The position numbers and the translations under genes are program-made. The notes below the pieces were generated by a model, which saw nothing but the letters and a program-made list of their open reading frames with translations, was not told where the DNA came from and did no database searches. Positions 1 through 15,175 of a stretch of DNA of 15,175 nucleotides are shown piece by piece. Numbering within the stretch: the first letter of the stretch is position 1; every line of letters starts with the position of its first letter. This DNA is from Candidatus Cloacimonadota bacterium (lineage in GTDB: Bacteria > Cloacimonadota > Cloacimonadia > Cloacimonadales > Cloacimonadaceae): positions 1 through 15,175 of the forward strand of contig JAQVMI010000008.1 of assembly GCA_028703735.1 (NCBI GenBank), given 5' to 3'.

Positions 1-222
1 TTCCCTTATTTGGGGATGTAAAGTTGGTTCTCCACCAATTAACCTGATTTGATTTTGATTGGAGGCAGCAAGAATGTTTACAGCTTTTTCGAAAACATCA
101 CTTGGTATAAATTGAGATAATTTAGCATTATCAGAGGATTTGTCTCCTGTGAAGCAATAACAACAATTCCTGTTGCATACAGATGTAATGGCTATATTTG
201 CCAATCTAATTCCATTATTTGC
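1..222 (-). CDS. Radical SAM domain protein, N-terminal part (runs off the window; start unresolved)
   Basis: Translating the minus strand from about 222 to 1 gives an N-terminal radical SAM segment: a strand ending in TSV, then the iron-sulfur motif CNRNCCYC (CxxxCxxC), and about 40 residues later the SAM-binding motif GGEPTLHP. The rest lies beyond position 1. It is the last visible gene of the tat/radical SAM/Cys-rich peptide cluster, so a role in maturing or tailoring the cluster's product is a reasonable inference. The start is odd: a TAA at 223-225 closes the frame just upstream and no in-frame ATG precedes the motif; TTG at 204-202 or ATT at 210-208 are the only candidates, without a good ribosome site. 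Either a non-ATG start is used or the gene begins further upstream and is broken by the TAA. Radical SAM assignment is firm; specificity is unknown. Confidence 0.8.
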
Positions 223-366
223 TTACATCCCTGTTTTGTGGAATGAGCACATAAGGTCTGATAGTGTAATGTTTTTATCGGGGTGGAATTCCCCTGCTTT
301 ACAAAAACATGTAGGCAGACAGACTTCCCCTATGTAAATAATAAGGGAATTATTGACCAGGTACAA
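223..366 (-). other. Short Cys-containing reading frame in phase with the radical SAM gene, ended by TAA
   Basis: The frame of the radical SAM segment stays open upstream of the TAA at 223-225, back to another stop near 378. A TTG at 366-364 could start a 47-residue product containing EVCLPTCFCKAGEF and ending LMCSFHKTGM. It overlaps the end of the beta-barrel gene by 17 bases. It could be the true N-terminus of the radical SAM enzyme, cut off by a nonsense change (CAA or GAA to TAA would be one base), or a separate small cysteine peptide. The missing good start for the downstream radical SAM frame favours the first reading. There is no convincing ribosome site. Confidence 0.4.
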
Positions 367-880
367 AATCCAATTTTAACTGGAAATTTATTAGCTGTCC
401 AACGTCATCTCCTGCCCTGAATACAAATTCACTATATAATACCCATTTTTCATGAATTCTGAATACCGTGCCAAGACGAATTGGAATCATGCTATCAGCC
501 AAAGTAGTTTCATCTCCAGAATTGGGCAGGTAATAGGTAACAAATGAAGCACCAAGGTATGGAGTAAGGTATTTATAAGATTTGCCAAAACGGATGCTTG
601 CCCAGTCCCACACAATAACACCATCCGAACTTTTGCCAACCGAGTTGTTGGTGAATCCAAAGCCAAGCAATTCAGCTTTGTAAAACCCATCGTCATCAAG
701 TGACATCAGTCCGGCAAAATTGAACAGAAAAGCGGGGCTATATTTATTATCCCCTTCACCCTTAAAAGGAAACACCATAAACTCCCCACCTGCAGAATAC
801 ATAGTATCAATATCGTAGTATCGGGAAAGCAGAGGGCTACAGAACAGGATAATCACTAAGAGCAGTAATATTGCTTTCAT
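350..880 (-). CDS. Small secreted, probable outer-membrane beta-barrel protein
   Basis: 176 residues. An N-terminal hydrophobic signal peptide (about residues 1-19, ending near PLLS) is followed by alternating polar and aromatic stretches typical of short outer-membrane barrels: FMVFPF, FLFNFAGLMSL, YLTPYLGASFVTYY, WVLYSEFVFRAG, and a C-terminal strand INFQLKLDFVPGQ. No enzymatic motif is visible. It starts 14 bases after the Cys-rich peptide gene ends, so the two are almost certainly co-transcribed; a weak GAGG precedes the ATG. By context it may be an outer-membrane anchor, receptor or exit point for the exported peptide, which is inference. Confidence is good for a real secreted protein, moderate for a barrel, low for a role. 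Confidence 0.7.
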   Translation of the reverse strand: MKAILLLLVIILFCSPLLSRYYDIDTMYSAGGEFMVFPFKGEGDNKYSPAFLFNFAGLMSLDDDGFYKAELLGFGFTNNSVGKSSDGVIVWDWASIRFGKSYKYLTPYLGASFVTYYLPNSGDETTLADSMIPIRLGTVFRIHEKWVLYSEFVFRAGDDVGQLINFQLKLDFVPGQ

Positions 881-893
881 TTCGCCTCAATTA

Positions 894-1289
894 TCAATTA
901 GGATACCAATAACCACAGCTTCCACAACTGGAAGAGTTTGAGCCGCAAACACTTTGGCAAGAGCAAACCATATTGCAAGTACAAACCATATTACAGGTGC
1001 AAACCGTATTGCAGGTGCAGGTTGATCCATTATAGGTGGATCCTATTGTTGATTCCGTATTAGAATTGTAATCATTTTCGTCATCATTCGAAACAGCATG
1101 ACACAGGCAGTTCCCATTAGTATTCCCTACAATATCTATTCCATCATCACAACCATTAATCATTGCGCTAAGACCCAAAGCTCCAGCTCCAAGGGCTAAT
1201 CCCTTCAGAAAACTCCGCCGTGATACCTTTTGGCTTCCCACATGGGCAATAACAAAGACTTTGGGTTGCTCATTATCATTTTCATGCAT
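894..1289 (-). CDS. Twin-arginine-signal, cysteine-rich repeat protein; candidate radical SAM (RiPP-like) substrate
   Basis: 131 residues. Residues 1-22 are a polar leader; SRRSFLKG at 23-30 is a textbook Tat motif, followed by a mild hydrophobic stretch (31-44) and Cys47 in a lipobox-like but non-canonical INGC. A Ser/Asn/Gly/Asp-rich linker follows, then a C-terminal core (91-125) built from six-residue units CTCNTV, CTCNMV, CTCNMV, CSCQSV, with further Cys at 115, 122 and 125. There are 14 Cys in total. The ATG at 1289 has a strong AGGAGGT ribosome site. The gene lies between a radical SAM/SPASM gene and a barrel gene, downstream of its own tatA, tatA/B and tatC. Known precedent: radical SAM/SPASM enzymes install thioether bonds in Cys-rich peptides (sactipeptides, ranthipeptides). 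Inferred here: the core is crosslinked in the cytoplasm and exported by Tat. An alternative is a metal-binding Tat lipoprotein. Confidence 0.8.
   Translation of the reverse strand: MHENDNEQPKVFVIAHVGSQKVSRRSFLKGLALGAGALGLSAMINGCDDGIDIVGNTNGNCLCHAVSNDDENDYNSNTESTIGSTYNGSTCTCNTVCTCNMVCTCNMVCSCQSVCGSNSSSCGSCGYWYPN
948..1019 (-). repeat. Four 18-bp in-frame repeats encoding CxC(N/Q)xV units
   Basis: Codons 91-114 of the Cys-rich gene form four tandem 18-base units, each giving Cys-x-Cys-Asn/Gln-x-Val. At DNA level the units differ by only a few bases (variants of GTGCAAACCGTATTGCAG on the plus strand), so copy number may change by slippage. The array lies wholly inside the coding region and has no spacers. 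Confidence 0.85.
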
Positions 1290-1327
1290 ATATACCTCCT
1301 AAATGCTTCAGAAAACAATTCTTCATC

Positions 1328-1416
1328 TTTATACCTTAGTGAACTTATTCGTCAGGATCACTGATTAACTTGGTGAACCTCTCTCTCCAATGTGTCACCA
1401 AGTGATTTTTTGTCAA
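1328..1416 (-). promoter_or_regulatory. Putative promoter and operator region for the Cys-rich peptide gene
   Basis: An exact TTGACA lies on the minus strand at 1416-1411, without a good -10 partner (ACATTG at 17-bp spacing). A second option is TATAAA at 1333-1328, about 40 bases before the ATG. An inverted repeat lies between and around them. The 184-base gap separates the peptide gene from the upstream radical SAM gene, so separate and stronger expression of the peptide is possible, as is usual for peptide substrates of modifying enzymes. Sequence inspection only. Confidence 0.4.
1368..1403. repeat. Perfect 9-bp inverted repeat ACTTGGTGA-N18-TCACCAAGT
   Basis: The arms are at 1368-1376 and 1395-1403 and are perfectly complementary. 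A third related half site (CCTTAGTGAAC on the plus strand, 1334-1344) sits close to the candidate TATAAA box, so the GTTCACYAAG-like half site occurs three times in 70 bases upstream of the Cys-rich gene. This could be an operator for a dimeric regulator or a stem-loop in a read-through mRNA. No T-run follows on the minus strand, so it is not an intrinsic terminator for the upstream genes. Confidence 0.55.
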
Positions 1417-1473
1417 GAAGTTTCATAATCGAGCTTGGCTAACTTCAGCATCAGCTAACAATATCATTGTTTT

Positions 1474-2811
1474 CTAAAAACTCTTTACTGTTTCCCAGAA
1501 GATGTCTATGTTTGAATGGAGATCCAGTGCTTCGAGTATCTGATAAAAGAACAACGCCTTGTTAATTTTACACCTGTAATGTAGCCCGGAATCTGTAGAT
1601 GCAAAACTATGTGCTCGCTTTGCCGGACAATCACCTGCACAATGCCATTTACAAAAGCAATGTTCACAATCATCATAATACGTAACATTCATGTTAGCTA
1701 AATATCTTATTTTGTCGTCATCAATAACTAATTTCTTACCCTTTATATTTACTTCCCCAAACACAAACATCTCGCCTAAGGGAGTAGTTTCATCAATTAT
1801 TTCGTAGCAACTGGTGATTTTGCCTGTTTGAGTAAAACAATATGAGTTTCCCGCAGCACCACAAAAAGTGTGGCATAAACTACTTAAGTTTGCCCCGGAA
1901 TAGGTTAGCTGGCGGTTATACTTTTTCGCTATCTCTTTAGCAGAAATAAAGTTACTTATATACTTCATTTGGCTGGGTGCAGTTAATACACTGGTTCGCC
2001 CCATCGGGAACATGGGTTCTGCCATTATTTTGTGAACTTTATACTGACTGCAGATATCTTCGATTGAGCCGGGTAGCATATCTACGCTTTGATCTGTTAC
2101 TGTCATACGCAATCCGTAATTGTAACCAAGCTTGTCAAAAATGCGTAAGGTTCTTTGAGCATATACATAGGAACCCTTTCCATTAGCTAAAGGTCTTTGC
2201 ATATCGTGAACTGTTTGCGAACCATCCAGGGAAAAAGTGGTATTGTTAACGTTTCGGGCAATCCAGACAGCCTGTTCTTCACTAAGGACACCATTGATAC
2301 CAACAGATGTGAAGATTTTCAATCCCTTATTTGTCGCCTCTTGATATAGATAATCGTATGCCTTTCTAAATAACTTCCAATCAGCTGAGATGTCTCCACC
2401 TCCATGGAAGTGCATCTTTACGTGCTTTGTACCAGTTAGCAGGCAATTGGCTATTAGAATACCGACAATCGTAGAGTATAGATCCCAATCCATAACCGAT
2501 GGATTGTCTCCACCATTAGCATAACAGTAAAGGCACCGGCAAGTGCACTTACCGGTAAGGAAAACTGTGGCTGAGGTTGGTTTTGTGTTAATTTGGGGAA
2601 TTCCATTGTATTTGTTCGTGAAGGGTGAAGATAATTTTAGGTACTCCATATCTTTTTGCGTAAGCCCAAGCTCTTCAAAAGGATCAAGATTTCCCTCTAA
2701 TGCCATGTTTAAGCGATGCCAAAGGCTGGTATCTGCCAGAAGTAATATCTGTTTGAATGGAATAAATACAATGTCCTTATCCTGATAGGGGAATCGAAAC
2801 ACATTGTTCAT
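1474..2811 (-). CDS. Radical SAM/SPASM enzyme, probable peptide maturase
   Basis: 445 residues. Residues 1-80 form an N-terminal extension. The radical SAM cluster motif KCTCRCLYCYANGG follows, with C89, C93 and C96 as CxxxCxxC and an extra C91 inside it; FHGGGD (about 135-140) stands where SAM enzymes carry GGEP. The C-terminal third has the SPASM-type auxiliary-cluster cysteines: CHTFCGAAG...CFTQTGKITSCYE, then CEHCFCKWHCAGDCPAKR and YRCKI. SPASM proteins of this architecture typically modify ribosomal peptides or act as sulfatase maturases; no sulfatase is seen here, while a Cys-rich peptide gene lies just downstream. Its ATG overlaps the tatC stop by one base (TAATG), indicating translational coupling. 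Radical SAM/SPASM is near certain; the peptide target is inferred from context. Confidence 0.92.
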   Translation of the reverse strand: MNNVFRFPYQDKDIVFIPFKQILLLADTSLWHRLNMALEGNLDPFEELGLTQKDMEYLKLSSPFTNKYNGIPQINTKPTSATVFLTGKCTCRCLYCYANGGDNPSVMDWDLYSTIVGILIANCLLTGTKHVKMHFHGGGDISADWKLFRKAYDYLYQEATNKGLKIFTSVGINGVLSEEQAVWIARNVNNTTFSLDGSQTVHDMQRPLANGKGSYVYAQRTLRIFDKLGYNYGLRMTVTDQSVDMLPGSIEDICSQYKVHKIMAEPMFPMGRTSVLTAPSQMKYISNFISAKEIAKKYNRQLTYSGANLSSLCHTFCGAAGNSYCFTQTGKITSCYEIIDETTPLGEMFVFGEVNIKGKKLVIDDDKIRYLANMNVTYYDDCEHCFCKWHCAGDCPAKRAHSFASTDSGLHYRCKINKALFFYQILEALDLHSNIDIFWETVKSF

Positions 2812-3578
2812 TATACTGTCACCTCTACGGGCTCTTTATTAAATACCGAACATAATACCAAGCCAATTTCAAAAAGCAAAATCAAGGGCAAAGCCATAAA
2901 AATCATAGAAAGAGGATCTGGAGGAGTTAATACGGCGGAGATAACAAAAAATAACACATAAAGATGTTTCCGTATCTTTCTGATCTTGGATAGCTTAACT
3001 AATCCAAGCCTATGAATCAATAGCAGCATCAATGGGGTTTGGAATAGTGCACCAAAAACTAAAACTACCTGTTGAGTTATTACAACAATGCTCTTTAGCG
3101 ATAATCTAAGGTCGTTTTTTATAAGTGAATTGGAAAACACCCCTTTATCATGCAAACTGTACTGCATGAAATAATTGAAAGTAATGGGAATAATCAGGTA
3201 GTAAGATAGCACAATGCCACCAAAAAAAAGGAGAATAACGCATGAAATAATCAGGATAACTGCTTTCTTTTCTTTCTTATGCAAGGCAGGGACAACAAAC
3301 CCACCCATTACGTACAAAGCAAAAGGTATGGATAGAACCAGCGAAAAGAAGGCAGTGGTTATCATATGCACTTGAAATTTATCTACTATGTTTAGAAGGA
3401 CAATTTCCCCGTTGCTCTGCCTCAAGTTCTTGATTAAAGGACTAAGATACAAGTTTAAAAGATCGTTTCTAAATGTCCAGCAGATTACAAAAAACAAGCT
3501 GAAAATAGCTGTTACAACTATAAGCCTGACACGTAATTCTTTTAAGTGATCACTTATAGAAGCTTGTTTATCGTTCAC
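2811..3578 (-). CDS. tatC: Sec-independent (twin-arginine) translocase subunit TatC
   Basis: 255 residues with six hydrophobic segments, the usual size for TatC. Recognisable landmarks are HLKELRVRL at 11-19, FVVPALHKKEKK with Glu103 (equivalent to the signal-binding Glu103 of the E. coli protein), and TPPDPLSM at 218-225 before the last helices. TatC in the inner membrane recognises the twin-arginine signal. One oddity: the usually conserved FGxxFExP motif reads FGALFQTP here, with Gln180 in place of Glu (Glu170 in E. coli). The gene overlaps the preceding short tat gene by 11 bases and the following radical SAM gene by one, so the group is a tight operon. Its own substrate candidate, SRRSFLKG, is encoded two genes downstream. 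Confidence 0.95.
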   Translation of the reverse strand: MNDKQASISDHLKELRVRLIVVTAIFSLFFVICWTFRNDLLNLYLSPLIKNLRQSNGEIVLLNIVDKFQVHMITTAFFSLVLSIPFALYVMGGFVVPALHKKEKKAVILIISCVILLFFGGIVLSYYLIIPITFNYFMQYSLHDKGVFSNSLIKNDLRLSLKSIVVITQQVVLVFGALFQTPLMLLLIHRLGLVKLSKIRKIRKHLYVLFFVISAVLTPPDPLSMIFMALPLILLFEIGLVLCSVFNKEPVEVTV

Positions 3579-3774
3579 TATCTGATTTTTCCTCTAAGTT
3601 CTGTTCTTCATGGATCTGATTGTTCAGGTCTGTTTCAATTTCGTTTTTGTATTCTTTTATCTTGAATATGAACTTTTTGATCTTCTTAACATAAGCCATT
3701 GTATCCTTGGGTCCCAAAATGATAATCGCAATAATAATTAGAACTATTAGTTCTGCATTGCCAACCCCAATCAT
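3568..3774 (-). CDS. Second short TatA/TatB-family protein (TatB-like)
   Basis: 68 residues: a short N-terminal periplasmic end, one transmembrane helix (ELIVLIIIAIIILG, about 8-21), the hinge sequence GPKDT, a basic amphipathic helix (YVKKIKKFIFKIKEYKNEI) and an acidic tail. The LGP hinge, rather than FG, is more TatB-like, but the Pro that usually follows (GPxxLP) is absent and the protein is much shorter than E. coli TatB. It lies 9 bases after tatA and overlaps tatC by 11 bases. It probably acts with TatC in the receptor complex or as a second pore-forming TatA. Family assignment is good; A versus B is not decided. Confidence 0.8.
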   Translation of the reverse strand: MIGVGNAELIVLIIIAIIILGPKDTMAYVKKIKKFIFKIKEYKNEIETDLNNQIHEEQNLEEKSDSER

Positions 3775-3783
3775 CGGAATGCC

Positions 3784-3990
3784 TTATTTTTCTTCTGAAT
3801 CATCAGTCTTATCAGGATGTTCATCCAGCTTAGAAGTAGGTGTATCATCAGAATTAGACATTTCCTTTTTGAACTCCTTCAAACTTCTTGCCAAAGATTT
3901 AGCTACTCCAGGTAGCTTATTGGCACCAAAAAAAACAAAAACTATCACACCAATTATCAGCAATTCCATAAATCCCAATCTTCCAAACAT
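3784..3990 (-). CDS. tatA: Twin-arginine translocase subunit TatA
   Basis: 68 residues with the classic TatA layout: FGRLGFMELLIIGVIVFVFFGANKLPGVAKSLARSLKEFKKEM, i.e. one transmembrane helix containing a polar Glu near its start, the FGxxKLP hinge, an amphipathic helix, and a charged tail (DEHPDKTDDSEEK). TatA oligomers form the passage for folded proteins. The ATG at 3990 follows AGGAG at a good distance. It is the first gene of the operon tatA, tatA/B-like, tatC, radical SAM enzyme. Confidence 0.93.
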   Translation of the reverse strand: MFGRLGFMELLIIGVIVFVFFGANKLPGVAKSLARSLKEFKKEMSNSDDTPTSKLDEHPDKTDDSEEK

Positions 3991-10403: not shown

Positions 10404-12635
10404 ATGAAAACAAGAGTATTTATCTTCCTCCTGCTGATGATAATGGCTTTTACTGCCATCTATGCCAGCGAGGATCCCACCGAACAAGAGGAGTATTTTA
10501 GGAAAAAACAAGAACTGGATTTACTCGCAGATCAGTTCAAAGCGGAGACAGGATTTACAGGTGAAATCCAGTATAACTTTGAACAAATGTGCTTAGGGGT
10601 ATTGGAGGGTAAGTTCTCTGGTATTACGATAACCAGCACAGCGGACACCACAGCTTTCAGAACTGCGTTTAATATGATACTGGACAAAGTACTACCTTAT
10701 TCAAAGGCTACAAAAAGTAAATTGTATATGAGTAAGATTACAAGTATTTGGGGAGATATAGATACTAAATACTACCAAATCGCAAATGGTTACAATATTG
10801 AAGGGGCGGGTTCAATAAAAATAGGATATGATTCCGGGCGCAATAGATTTGTGGTTAGCGATAGTGCAGTGGATATACCGCAAATAAATGCGAATGATTT
10901 AATCCCCAAAGAAAGAGCAGAGGAAATAGCTCTTCTTGACAAGAACGATGCACGATATCGCAAAGCAAGAGTGAAATCAACATTCTACACAAACATGGGT
11001 TCGAATGCTTATTATCTGGCTTACCTTGTATGCGTTAGTGACGATTCAAATCCAATACTCGGGGATTACTATTACTATATTGAAGCATTAACTGGCATAA
11101 TTATGACAAAGTATCGTGCTAATCATATTAATTCTGATGTAACCGTTCGCGTTATGGGTAACGATTACATTGAATCATCAATCTGGAGCATACCACCAAC
11201 ATATTATACTGAAGAGCCATTGAAAGATGTTAGAGTAATTGTTAATCCAGATTCGTCTCAAACAGATCTATCAGGATGCGCTTACTTCTATGATGTTGTC
11301 GATAGCACTAAAACCGCTAAGCTAACTAATTCACTTTTCAGGTTGTCGTGTAGTAGTGACACCCTAAATGCTATATCATACACAACTGCAAGTGTGGATA
11401 CTTTACATCATTATACTTTCAGCATTCCAGACAATACTTATTATGCATCTAATGCATACATAGAAGCCGTCAACCACGTTAATGGTTTAATTCGTTTGAA
11501 CGAAACCCAAGACTACTTTCTAAATCACCTGAACATTACTACATTTTCAACTCCACCAGATCCCACCGCTCAAACATATGGCTGTTATAGCCCTGAAGAT
11601 AATCTCATATGGTTAAGAGATGGATGACTCTCTGATACTGTTAGACACGAACTTAGCCATCACTTCATTCATCGCAAAATTGGAGCCTGGTCTTTTGATT
11701 ACCCCATCACAACACACACTGATACAGGTGCCATGGATGAAGCCTGTGCAAATTACTTATGTGGTGCTCCAACCAATAATAGTATTTTGCCTGGGATTGG
11801 TAATTATTGCGATATGTCATTATTAAACAGTCTGCCTGCATCCGCTTCATTGAATGAGGATCTATATGCAAAATATGCAAACTCACTATGTATCTCATCT
11901 GCTTGGTGGAGTTTGAGAAACAACCAGTACTTCGGTCAAGTGGAACCAGGCAAAAATGCTGTTGATACATTGCTTGTAAAGGGGTTAAATGTTGTATATA
12001 ATGAAAGCCAATACAATTCCTCCTACAGGTATATACCAAGATATTTCTACAATATTCTGATGAAACGGGTTGACACAGACAGTGAGCCTTGGCCTCTCAA
12101 TGCTAAACAGATTGCCATCAATGATGCTTACACAAGCCGCGGCTTACATTTCTACCCCAAGGTGGAGAGCATCAGCTCTGGGAATAGTAGCAGGAATATC
12201 TTTGGATTGAATGAGCCTGTCCACGTCCAGATTAGCGATTGCCCCCAGAATACCAGGATAAATATCTATGTGATTAAACATGGTGATTACAATTATACGG
12301 ATGGGGCACCTGTTTCTGCTCTTAGCAGTTTCTATGCCAGTGGTTTTACTCCCATCACAACTGTATCAACTGATCCATCCGGTAACTGGAGCGGATTGAT
12401 TTGGACTACTCCCAGTTTAGCAGAAGATGGGGTGGGTGATTACGATATAATTGTAGATATTGGTAGCCATACTGCACCCGATGGAATTATTCATTTCGTT
12501 TTCAGCGGTGCCAATGTTATGGATGGGTTTGATGGCAGAACCGCTTCGGGATTTAGTGTTATTGATAACGGTATTGATGTGGTGATGGTAAAGCAAGACT
12601 TTCCTAAGCAGCAAATTACAATATCAAATAATTAG
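10404..12635 (+). pseudogene. Secreted HExxH metalloprotease, copy 1, interrupted by in-frame TGA
   Basis: One frame of 743 codons broken only by TGA at 11625-11627 (codon 408). Order: signal peptide 1-21 (cut after AIYA), propeptide-like region with KYYQIANGYNIEGAGSIKI (about 122-140) as in thermolysin/fungalysin propeptides, then HELSH (415-419) with a downstream Glu446 in MDEACANYL as probable third zinc ligand, and an Ig-like C-terminal domain (about 600-725) ending in TISNN. The TGA falls seven codons before the active site; paralog codon 408 is TTA (Leu), so one T-to-G change explains it. TGA is a normal stop elsewhere in the window, and no selenocysteine-type hairpin was obvious. Without read-through only a catalytically dead 407-residue N-terminal piece is made. 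A sequencing error is possible. Good AAGGAG ribosome site. Confidence 0.8.
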
Positions 12636-12682
12636 TACCATTGTTCTGCACAGGCAGGCATCTGTAATAAACAGGTTTCCGC

Positions 12683-12740
12683 CTATTCAGAAAACGAAAG
12701 CGCAAAATTATTGACACAAAGATAACCATGTAAAACATAG
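12683..12740 (+). promoter_or_regulatory. Second copy of the protease promoter block
   Basis: TTGACA at 12711-12716 sits inside a 58-base block repeated from 10083-10140 with two differences, about 2600 bases apart. Similarity continues more weakly through GCAAACAAAACATA and GTGTATTA. The block is 105 bases from the copy 2 start. Its conservation compared with the protease middle parts suggests functional promoter or regulator sites. Confidence 0.55.
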
Positions 12741-12844
12741 GCATTGCAAACAAAACATAAGATAGAGTGTATTAGGCGTTAGTTGAAAAAAGAACTGACA
12801 TAAGAACAGAACAGTAAACCTCTAAAATAATAAAGGAGACGAAA

Positions 12845-15175
12845 ATGAAAACAAGAGTATTTATCTTCCTCCTGCTGATGATGATAATGGTTATTTCTGC
12901 CATCTACGCCAGCGAGGATCCCACCGAAAATGAGGAGTATTTTAGGAAAAAACAAGAACTTGGTATTCTTGCAGATCGATTCAAAGCTGAGACCGCATTC
13001 AGGGGAGATATCGAAACCTATCCGGATCAAATGAAGCTCGCCAGATTTACAGGCAATTTCGATGACATCGATATGACGAATGTAAGAGATTCTGTTGCCT
13101 TCAGGCAGGTGTGCACTAACGTTATAAACAAGTTGCTGCCTTACATTGGGGCTAATAGTGAACAACTGGTGCTCGGGAAAATCAATGTTGATTCTGATCA
13201 GATAGATACCAGATACTATCAGAAAGTAAATGGATACCAAATTGAAAGTGGTGGATACCTGAATATATACTATTTGTATAGCCATAAAAGATTTGGAATT
13301 CTGAATGTAACCGTTGATATCCCGCAGGAATCTTTAGGTAACATTATCTCAAAAGAAGAGGCATTCAGTATTGCGAGAAGTGCATTCGAGCAGACCGAAT
13401 ATTGTAACGAAAACACCCCAAAACACAGAAGTAGAACTACAATAATATACAGAAATAGAGTATTGAATGGGAAATCACAACCTTACAGATTGTATTGGAA
13501 AGTTGCATTTCCTGGATTGTTGTATTACATAGATGCGGTTACCTCTGAATACTACACTGAAAGATATGTGGTTAACGATGTTTATACATATTCGGTTGAT
13601 GGCAAGAAATATGGGGTTGATACCAGTTTCGGGCTTATAGGCATGAAGCCAGTGAAGGGTATTGAAGTTTGTAATGGAGCAGACCCAGATTATACTAATG
13701 CAGTTGGCGAGGTTCAATTTCCGAACCTACCAGACTCCTCTTTTCAAGTTACTCTTTCGAGCGAAAAATTTAGCATTAGTTCAGGCAACAATCCGGATAT
13801 AATACATGTAAACTCTTTCACAACAATAGATTCATTGAATTATGAGACTCTCCTGGATGATTTGATAATCCAGAGCGATAGCACTTATTCGTATTTTGCA
13901 CCTAATATATTCCATCATATAATCGAACAGGACACTTTGTTTTGCAAACTTGATAGCAATTTTTCTACAATAACATATCCGAATGTTATTAACGATTGTC
14001 AAAATATGAGTTCGGCATTGGGTGAATTTGATCCTCAGACTTATGCGATTAAACTGGCAAATGGATTAAATTCGCACGTAGTTAGACATGAATCTTCTCA
14101 TTTCTTTACTTATCAAGTAATGAATTATCACCAGTTTTATGAGTCAGCCAGCCCGATAAATGCAAATCTCTATCAATCCATGGATGAAGCATTTGCGGAG
14201 TATTGGCTAAGCATTGGAATCAATTCAACAACTCACAATTACGGGCAGCCAGTTGATATTCAAAACGTAGATGTTGGAGTCGTTTATACTTCATACAATA
14301 ACTACTCTTTGCCGCTAAATGAAGCTTTTTATTCATGGTATTCAAATAGATACCCTATCGCTTCTGCTTGGTGGTCACTCAGAAACAACTCAATTTTCGG
14401 TTCAGATCCAAGGCCAGGGGTAAAAGCTTTTGATGATATTCTGGTAAAAACACTTCGCCAGGATGTTGATCCAAATTACGCTCAACGTTACAAACCCCGT
14501 TATTTCTATAACCTACTTATGCAAAGAACCGCTGATCTGCTGCAACCTGATGTGCTTAATAATAAGCAAAAAGCCATCAATAACGCTTATAATAGCCGAG
14601 GTTTAAAATTCTATCCTACTGTAGAAAGCTACAGCGGAGGAAACAAAGGCAGAAATGTTTACAATATGAATGATTCCGTTTATGTTGAGATCAGTAACTG
14701 CCCTCAGAATACCAGGATAAACATCTATGTGATTAAACATGGCAATTACACTTATACTGATGGGGCACCTGTTTCTGCACTAAATGATCATCTTGCCAAT
14801 GGATTTACTCAAGCAATAATTGCAACTACCAATGCCGATGGAGAATGGAGTTCTCCTACTCCTATCTGGATCGCAACAGAGGAAGGGGAATACGACATTA
14901 TAGTAGATATCGGCAGTCCCGGTACACCCGATGGCATTATTCATTTTGCTTTCAGCGGTGCCAATGTTATGGATGGAATTGATGGCAGAACTGAAGCAGG
15001 GTTTACAGTTATAGAAAATGGGATTGATGTGGCTGTTGCGTTAGATGTTTCTGGTTCAATGTTGGACGTGGATGATGATATTCAGAGAGCTACTCGTGCT
15101 TTAATAGGGTATCTTGATAATGGAGATCGGGTAAATGTGTTCAAGTTCTGTTCTGATGGGCTGTCAAACTACGTT
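12845..15175 (+). CDS. Secreted HExxH metalloprotease, copy 2, with von Willebrand A domain (partial)
   Basis: Open for 777 codons from ATG 12845 to the window end. Signal peptide is almost identical to copy 1 (MKTRVFIFLLLM...AIYA). It has a propeptide-like region (QKVNGYQIESGGYLNI; ISKEEAFSIARSAF), the zinc motif HESSH (415-419), Glu448 in MDEAFAEYW as likely third ligand, an Ig-like domain (about 608-725), and then VALDVSGSM, whose D734, S736 and S738 form the DxSxS metal site of a von Willebrand A domain; the rest lies outside. It is probably a secreted or surface protease using the A domain for binding. Copy 1 diverges exactly where this domain begins. The ribosome site (AAGGAGACGAAA) is shared with copy 1. 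Substrate unknown. Confidence 0.88.
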   Translation, partial: MKTRVFIFLLLMMIMVISAIYASEDPTENEEYFRKKQELGILADRFKAETAFRGDIETYPDQMKLARFTGNFDDIDMTNVRDSVAFRQVCTNVINKLLPYIGANSEQLVLGKINVDSDQIDTRYYQKVNGYQIESGGYLNIYYLYSHKRFGILNVTVDIPQESLGNIISKEEAFSIARSAFEQTEYCNENTPKHRSRTTIIYRNRVLNGKSQPYRLYWKVAFPGLLYYIDAVTSEYYTERYVVNDVYTYSVDGKKYGVDTSFGLIGMKPVKGIEVCNGADPDYTNAVGEVQFPNLPDSSFQVTLSSEKFSISSGNNPDIIHVNSFTTIDSLNYETLLDDLIIQSDSTYSYFAPNIFHHIIEQDTLFCKLDSNFSTITYPNVINDCQNMSSALGEFDPQTYAIKLANGLNSHVVRHESSHFFTYQVMNYHQFYESASPINANLYQSMDEAFAEYWLSIGINSTTHNYGQPVDIQNVDVGVVYTSYNNYSLPLNEAFYSWYSNRYPIASAWWSLRNNSIFGSDPRPGVKAFDDILVKTLRQDVDPNYAQRYKPRYFYNLLMQRTADLLQPDVLNNKQKAINNAYNSRGLKFYPTVESYSGGNKGRNVYNMNDSVYVEISNCPQNTRINIYVIKHGNYTYTDGAPVSALNDHLANGFTQAIIATTNADGEWSSPTPIWIATEEGEYDIIVDIGSPGTPDGIIHFAFSGANVMDGIDGRTEAGFTVIENGIDVAVALDVSGSMLDVDDDIQRATRALIGYLDNGDRVNVFKFCSDGLSNYV

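Follow-up and report, generated by a model that had tools for sequence, protein, structure and literature searches.

A candidate radical SAM peptide pathway encoded with its own Tat genes in a Candidatus Cloacimonadota genome

The window, the whole stretch of DNA that was analysed, comprises 15,175 nucleotides from Candidatus Cloacimonadota bacterium (assembly GCA_028703735.1, contig JAQVMI010000008.1). It is an entire contig (C21) of a host genome of 2.5 Mb in 472 contigs that is 80.8% complete. One run of seven reading frames occupies positions 1–3990 of the minus strand. In order, these are tatA, a TatB-like gene, tatC, a radical S-adenosylmethionine (SAM) enzyme with a SPASM domain (SPASM1), a cysteine-rich peptide with a twin-arginine translocation (Tat) signal, a protein of 176 residues and the N-terminal part of another radical SAM enzyme (rSAM2). 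All seven frames, which an original prediction made from the letters alone had assigned to a single minus-strand cluster, were confirmed at the positions claimed. The gene set recurs in other genomes, and the only TatC detected in the host lies near its only recognised Tat signal, both in this run. Loci, genomes and contigs are numbered with L, G and C.

The gene run and its precursor peptide

The peptide begins with a leader (EQPKVFVI) and continues with a Tat signal (SRRSFLKG), a lipobox-like INGC, a core of CxC repeats and the end GYWYPN. It passes the signal model TIGR01409 (25.9 bits, cut-off 16.7) and narrowly misses PF10518 (22.3 bits, cut-off 22.7). There are 14 cysteines, with four CxCxxxC motifs in the body (residue 43 on) and five CxC motifs. 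At least the observed number of CxCxxxC motifs was reached in 3 of 20,000 composition shuffles and that of CxC motifs in 529 of 20,000; the regular cysteine spacing is therefore the stronger signal. The description as a Tat-signal peptide with cysteine-rich repeats holds.

SPASM1 passes TIGR04085 (32.5 bits, cut-off 27) and misses PF04055 (21.6 bits, cut-off 29.5; E 0.00026) although the CX3CX2C motif and the SPASM domain are present. This motif and seven SPASM cysteines are kept in all 19 aligned SPASM1-type enzymes (that of the window and those from 18 of the 23 related loci described below; L063, L070, L072, L073 and L080 are outside the alignment). The best NCBIfam matches are the PapB (E 4.7e-29) and SCIFF (E 3.3e-21; 75.7 bits, cut-off 425) models, and both equivalog cut-offs are missed. 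Eight related enzymes were scanned as well, and no equivalog cut-off is reached in the list of the best 25 matches of any of them. Compared with solved structures, the SPASM1 family profile matches 5wgg best (positions 38–426, 1.5e-46), which is presumably CteB. The fragment of rSAM2 exceeds the Pfam radical SAM cut-off (33.6 bits, cut-off 29.5). It ends after 68 residues at the first base of the window because the window is the whole contig.

TatA and TatC exceed their curated cut-offs in both Pfam and NCBIfam, and the TatB-like frame matches tatB below the curated cut-off (Table 1). A complete Tat set had been predicted; TatA and TatC bear this out, the TatB-like frame with a match below the cut-off. 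Tat systems of TatA and TatC without TatB are known.

The tatA and TatB-like genes are separated by 9 bp, the TatB-like gene overlaps tatC by 11 bp, and tatC overlaps SPASM1 by 1 bp in the sequence TAATG, the coupling that had been noticed originally. Between SPASM1 and the peptide lie 184 bp, between the peptide and the barrel-like frame 13 bp and between the latter and rSAM2 145 bp. The spacing is thus tight in the stretch tatA–SPASM1 and again between the peptide and the barrel-like frame, but not along the whole run.

In Pfam and NCBIfam scans the only family match of the 176-residue protein is PorG, and its likeness to a β-barrel is weak. No relative of this protein was found in the 23 related loci. 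A role for it is therefore set aside, and the suggestion that the peptide is exported to it is unsupported.

Table 1. Features of the minus-strand gene run in the window; scores are in bits.
Feature	Position	Strand	Evidence
tatA, 68 aa, at the head of the run	3784..3990	-	TIGR01411 60.6 (cut-off 53.9); PF02416 1.5e-15, 56.6 (cut-off 21)
TatB-like protein, 68 aa	3568..3774	-	TIGR01410 2.6e-11, 43.9 (cut-off 56.5), below cut-off
tatC, 255 aa	2811..3578	-	PF00902 1.6e-51, 175.5 (cut-off 25.1); TIGR00945 151.7 (cut-off 132.7); sole TatC found in the host genome
SPASM1, 445 aa	1474..2811	-	TIGR04085 over and PF04055 below cut-off; PapB 101.7 (cut-off 340); seven-cysteine motif; 5wgg
Precursor peptide, 131 aa	894..1289	-	TIGR01409 over cut-off; leader alignment A4; relatives end W[YH]PN
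Small protein, 176 aa, signal-like start, perhaps β-barrel	350..880	-	PorG E 0.077 only
rSAM2, N-terminal 68 aa	1..204	-	PF04055 5.6e-08, over cut-off; 33–49% identity to rSAM2 of eight related clusters

Related clusters and their two forms

When plasmids were searched with SPASM1, a cluster was found in Candidatus Chlorohelix allophototropha, in which an enzyme of 28% identity stands beside a relative of rSAM2 (41%). Two proteins of this cluster carry the leader EEKPQVFAV, followed by FNRRDFLAAA, CxC motifs and the end HYWYPN or HYWHPN. In the window peptide EQPKVFVI, SRRSFLKG and GYWYPN are found at the matching places, and the proteins are therefore assigned to one family. A single-protein scan of genomes with SPASM1 found no relative, and the window peptide gave no tblastn match in plasmids. 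Searching the genome collection with the aligned window and Chlorohelix enzymes yielded 23 loci. These come from Tannerellaceae, Clostridiales, Lachnospiraceae, Eggerthellaceae, Verrucomicrobiota, Nitrospirae, Lentisphaerae, Acidobacteriota, Brocadiaceae, Chloroflexi and the scaffold UASB270.

A precursor with CxC repeats lies beside the SPASM1-type enzyme in 20 of the 23 loci; none was seen in L070, L077 and L080, of which L077 starts near a contig end. No frame passing the CxC or leader pattern is present in 12 control loci with weaker or other SPASM matches from the phylum (L003–L014), which are shorter (2.8–4.1 kb) than the cluster loci (4.8–17.3 kb). Furthermore, rSAM2 recurs next to precursors ending in W[YH]PN. 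Neighbours that vary freely between relatives, which the original prediction had named as speaking against it, were thus not seen.

The family of the window peptide, also seen in Chloroflexi, Lentisphaerae and UASB270, has a Px[VIL][FY] leader that precedes the twin arginine by about 15 residues; a folded domain, often WD40, may follow, and the CxC-rich tail has the end W[YH]PN. In the leader alignment A4, P, RR and F are invariant in all 10 chosen rows and the distance between leader and twin arginine is near-constant; L062, which has a variant leader, and L069 were left out of the final alignment and L063 was never included. Six precursors were scanned for cargo between signal and tail, with WD40 found in four, SH3 in one and no recognised domain in one. 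Several have lipobox-like signal ends as judged by eye. No precursor model of Pfam or NCBIfam matches the ten relatives scanned.

A leader search in 400 genomes of the phylum of G144 matched four genomes, two with the full leader and two in the Tat part only. Both full-leader genomes were already known, namely G144 (the genome of L078) and G824 (the Chlorohelix leaders at the same coordinates). The search thus gave no new member, and the precursor family is therefore rare. The leader pattern was drawn from the same sequences, so that the association of leader and CxC repeats in this check is not independent.

Two forms of the cluster are present. In the first, the precursor itself bears the twin-arginine signal (10 of 23 loci, by pattern and by eye: L062, L063, L067, L069, L073–L076, L078 and L079). 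Seven of these ten, all except L062, L063 and L069, have the W[YH]PN end; members with this end come from Chloroflexi, Lentisphaerae and UASB270. In the second form (8 of 23 loci: L058, L059, L060, L064, L065, L066, L071 and L072) the precursor lacks a signal and its end is mostly C[SR]C[AV]PVH, and an adjoining PqqD-like protein has a Tat or Tat-like signal, mostly recognised by eye. The Pfam model of PqqD was applied to L064, L065 and L071; L064 and L071 pass and L065 is below the cut-off (21.5 bits, cut-off 23.4). The remaining PqqD-like proteins and signals were assigned by eye; the L072 signal also passes TIGR01409, and that of L066 is the weakest. L061 and L068 contain a precursor and a PqqD-like gene with a signal on neither, and no TatC or Tat signal was detected in their genomes.

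Three further enzymes recur in the W[YH]PN clusters, rSAM2 and two additional SPASM proteins. Enzymes of the window and the host were compared with those of ten loci and Chlorohelix, and rSAM2 of the window has its counterpart in eight clusters (Table 1). Two SPASM genes on another contig of the host (C281) match the other two recurrent enzymes with identities of 30–38% (seven clusters) and 27–34% (seven clusters). Judged from these matches, the host pathway probably comprises four radical SAM enzymes split over contigs C21 and C281.

Some further features of related loci were observed. L079 contains a second frame of 60 residues in the same cluster (15218–15400) that ends with HYWHPN and has no Tat signal. 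On a Caballeronia plasmid (L044, 5044–5643) a SPASM1 relative is followed by a twin-arginine CxC protein without the Px[VIL][FY] leader. The cluster of L071 is followed by a B12-binding radical SAM protein and a U32-peptidase-like protein (10818–13182), and by eye similar genes follow the clusters of the second-form type in L061, L064, L066 and L068. A Salmonella plasmid (L053) and an Edwardsiella plasmid (L054) encode a related SPASM enzyme accompanied by S8 peptidases, a short peptide and an ABC transporter, which offers an ABC route instead of Tat.

Tat genes in the host lineage and beside related clusters

TatC was found once in the host genome, within this run, and no further tatABC locus was detected. 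Likewise, a single TIGR01409 signal is present, again in this run, even at E-values up to 10. A search of the host genome with the alignment of leader and signal returned the window peptide as the sole match. A sole tat locus that serves many unrelated substrates, the other outcome held to speak against the prediction, is thus not visible in this 80.8% complete genome, with the caveat that TIGR01409 has limited sensitivity.

Of 124 genomes from the phylum, 6 gave a TatC match (5 over the cut-off) and 3 a recognised Tat signal. In the seven other genus members neither was detected. The Tat system is an anomaly in this lineage, which almost entirely lacks Tat. A general housekeeping Tat locus of the lineage was considered and is rejected by this rarity together with the single TatC and the single signal of the host. 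In another genome of the same order (G105; L027, 1927–7050), tatA and tatC are located ~3 kb from the only recognised Tat-signal protein of that genome. By eye this protein resembles aldo/keto reductases, so that here another small Tat set stands beside a likely client.

TatC is present in 19 of the 23 cluster genomes. Two Clostridiales genomes, G137 (L071) and G138 (L072), have two TatC genes each, and no others were found in them; both genes follow a TatA-like frame and immediately precede the PqqD-like gene, SPASM1 and the peptide. The single TIGR01409 match of G138 lies inside the same cluster; G137 has one match (E 0.0098), the position of which is not listed. The search for the gene set in other genomes, proposed originally as a check, thus returned two genomes whose only TatC genes adjoin a related SPASM enzyme and a CxC peptide. 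The window was picked because of its pairing of Tat genes and peptide and these two loci were not.

Of 392 genomes sampled from the order of G137, 12 have a TatC match, 11 of them over the cut-off. The 10 over-cut-off loci from other genomes of this order have no SPASM relative (0 of 10) within the neighbourhood inspected (up to ~6 kb on each side, less at contig ends). One CxC-rich frame was flagged in one of the TatC control loci (L123) and is not convincing. The two adjacent TatC genes in each of L071 (6072–7530) and L072 (482–1736) are very different from each other, and the match of the second is limited to roughly the first 165 of the 208 positions of the TatC model.

The cca, hemW, lepB and adh genes of the window are 45–79% identical to genes of genus members. 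The order cca-hemW-lepB is kept in five of six genus neighbourhoods fetched, and the sixth is cut before cca. The contig therefore belongs to the lineage, and a misplacement of the whole contig from another organism is ruled out by the genus-like genes and their order. In the five neighbourhoods neither tat genes nor SPASM1 nor the peptide lie beside this block. They differ from each other beyond cca, and a clean empty site for the run can therefore not be demonstrated. The contig may be chimeric, with a join between positions 3990 and 4303. Elsewhere in the window (10404–15175) two adjacent, similar and large secreted-looking proteins are encoded that start with MKTRVFIFLLL; the first is broken into separate open frames.

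Proposed pathway, alternatives and known systems

The central idea of the original prediction, a SPASM-modified CxC peptide with its own Tat exporter, is supported by these comparisons. With a probability of roughly two in three, the run is the locus of a pathway resembling those of ribosomally synthesized and post-translationally modified peptides (RiPPs) that brings its own Tat translocase, and the core would be modified in the cytoplasm and then exported in a folded state. The Px[VIL][FY] leader motif would be bound in the cytoplasm by SPASM1 or by a PqqD-like partner. SPASM1 and rSAM2, probably together with the two SPASM enzymes of C281, would then modify the C-terminal core of CxC repeats. 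Most likely, thioether cross-links would be formed, since SPASM1 is kin to the PapB and SCIFF maturases; the tail would be made rigid by these or by other radical changes. Binding of the leader could mask the twin-arginine signal until modification is done, because the twin arginine follows the leader motif at a near-constant distance of ~15 residues. TatA, the TatB-like protein and TatC would carry the finished, compact product across the membrane. There it may be anchored as a lipoprotein, as proposed from the lipobox-like INGC, and envelope anchoring is likely for several of the precursors. As this motif suggests anchoring, the product is probably a structure of the cell envelope (for metal binding, redox or damage resistance) and not a diffusible toxin. 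In the second form the PqqD-like protein would carry the peptide across with it. More tentatively, and with slightly less than even confidence, the clusters may define a class of RiPPs exported by Tat by design. The signal would be placed on the precursor or on a PqqD-like partner in a hitchhiker complex, and a cluster could bring its own Tat into bacteria that lack it.

Several observations weigh against the pathway with a private translocase. The examined flanks of the clusters lack TatC in 17 of the 19 TatC-bearing genomes, and a private Tat system is thus the exception. In L071 and L072, where it occurs, the peptides have no Tat signal of their own, which is found on the PqqD-like protein. 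In two genomes, G125 (L059) and G132 (L066), 12 and 2 Tat signals are present and no TatC was found, likely due to genome incompleteness. Neither rSAM2 nor the further SPASM enzymes were seen in the Tat-type Tannerella loci L062 and L063, of which L063 is outside the identity comparison. The incompleteness of the host genome weakens the count of one TatC and one signal. This signal count could also be low because TIGR01409 is not very sensitive; of six Tat-type precursor relatives scanned, one passes (L075), two are just below the cut-off and three are not listed. Finally, the window TatC forms a long branch that is unplaced in the tree, has at most 31% identity to the other 27 rows and does not group with those of L071 and L072. 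The three private Tat sets therefore need not share an origin, and repeated capture of Tat appears as likely as common descent.

These points bear on the view that the enzymes do modify the peptide while the tat genes are the general Tat system of the genome, transferred and parked beside the cluster, so that the pairing is incidental. The clusters without TatC in their flanks, the unplaceable TatC and Tat substrates that TIGR01409 may have overlooked all fit such an arrangement. We consider it unlikely, as the only recognised Tat substrate of the host is in this run and the pairing recurs in the two Clostridiales genomes, compared with no SPASM relative at any of the 10 other TatC loci in the order of G137.

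The identity of the exported product can also be read differently. The Tat-signal protein might be an anchored scaffold from which a small tail peptide, the real product (for example a signal or an antibiotic), is cut off after export. The Salmonella and Edwardsiella plasmids, where related SPASM enzymes adjoin short peptides, an ABC transporter and S8 peptidases, would agree with this, as would cargo domains that vary (none recognised, WD40 or SH3) in front of a conserved tail. However, none of the seven genes has a protease among its Pfam and NCBIfam matches, in a run that the contig end cuts short, and the lipobox-like sites seen by eye in several precursors suggest anchoring; such a scaffold is quite unlikely. 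Very unlikely is an unmodified, metallothionein-like binder that is loaded with metal in the cytoplasm and for this reason uses Tat, with the radical SAM enzymes acting elsewhere. CxC repeats are indeed reminiscent of proteins that bind metal, and Tat is a route for proteins that are folded or carry a cofactor. Yet the precursor family adjoins SPASM1 in 20 of 23 loci, and the leader motif before the Tat signal is kept although an exported metal binder would not need one.

No Tat-exported radical SAM peptide is described in the family models or the open-licence literature searched, in line with the original remark that no pathway with co-encoded Tat genes is known for such a peptide. The system proposed for the window would be a new arrangement of known parts, and more than that if the hitchhiker form holds. 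The closest enzymes are the PapB and SCIFF maturases of ranthipeptides (5wgg), which are the best matches of SPASM1 and likewise have a cysteine-rich substrate adjoining the enzyme. SPASM1, in contrast, scores far under their cut-offs, its substrate has CxC hexads, a Tat signal and the W[YH]PN end, and its clusters repeatedly contain several radical SAM enzymes.

Bufferins and related MNIO RiPPs resemble the window peptide as modified, cysteine-containing peptides with a signal peptide. According to the available part of the source, this is a Sec signal, which is called a rare feature among RiPP precursors; some are predicted lipoproteins and a few are fused to larger domains (PMC12452194). 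Its authors also speculate about a partner protein that would keep the signal hidden while modification is under way, an idea shared with the present proposal (PMC12452194). The difference lies in Sec and MNIO enzymes there and Tat and radical SAM enzymes here; neither 'Tat' nor 'twin-arginine' occurs in the main text of that paper (PMC12452194). None of the seven genes of the run has an MNIO family match in the Pfam and NCBIfam scans, and the signal is of the Tat type. The RiPP-lipoprotein DybA is similar in its cytoplasmic modification followed by a predicted lipoprotein pathway and differs in its MNIO enzyme, and in the main text of that source neither 'Tat' nor 'twin-arginine' is used (PMC12636315).

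In the part of the source that was available, tat genes are described as contiguous with the locus of a Tat-exported protein in fepABC of S. aureus and ywbLMN of B. subtilis (PMC3577903). There the cargo is a heme-peroxidase of an iron-uptake system and not a modified peptide (PMC3577903). The logic proposed for the window peptide has been voiced for an engineered lanthipeptide display; in the part available, its authors speculate that Tat could give the precursor a longer time with cytoplasmic enzymes before export (PMC5686179). This is a remark on engineered phage display, and the part available contains no natural example (PMC5686179).

RiPP precursors usually rely on ABC transporters for export. 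With Tat as its route, a radical SAM pathway could release a product that is cross-linked, bulky or as large as a domain, and its passage through the membrane would be explained. A family of exported proteins, with WD40 or other domains and a cysteine tail apparently modified by radical SAM enzymes, would be new to annotation. A natural Tat system with perhaps one client would be useful for learning what Tat requires of its substrate. If a cluster can indeed bring its own translocase, Tat would be a mobile accessory of a biosynthetic cluster.

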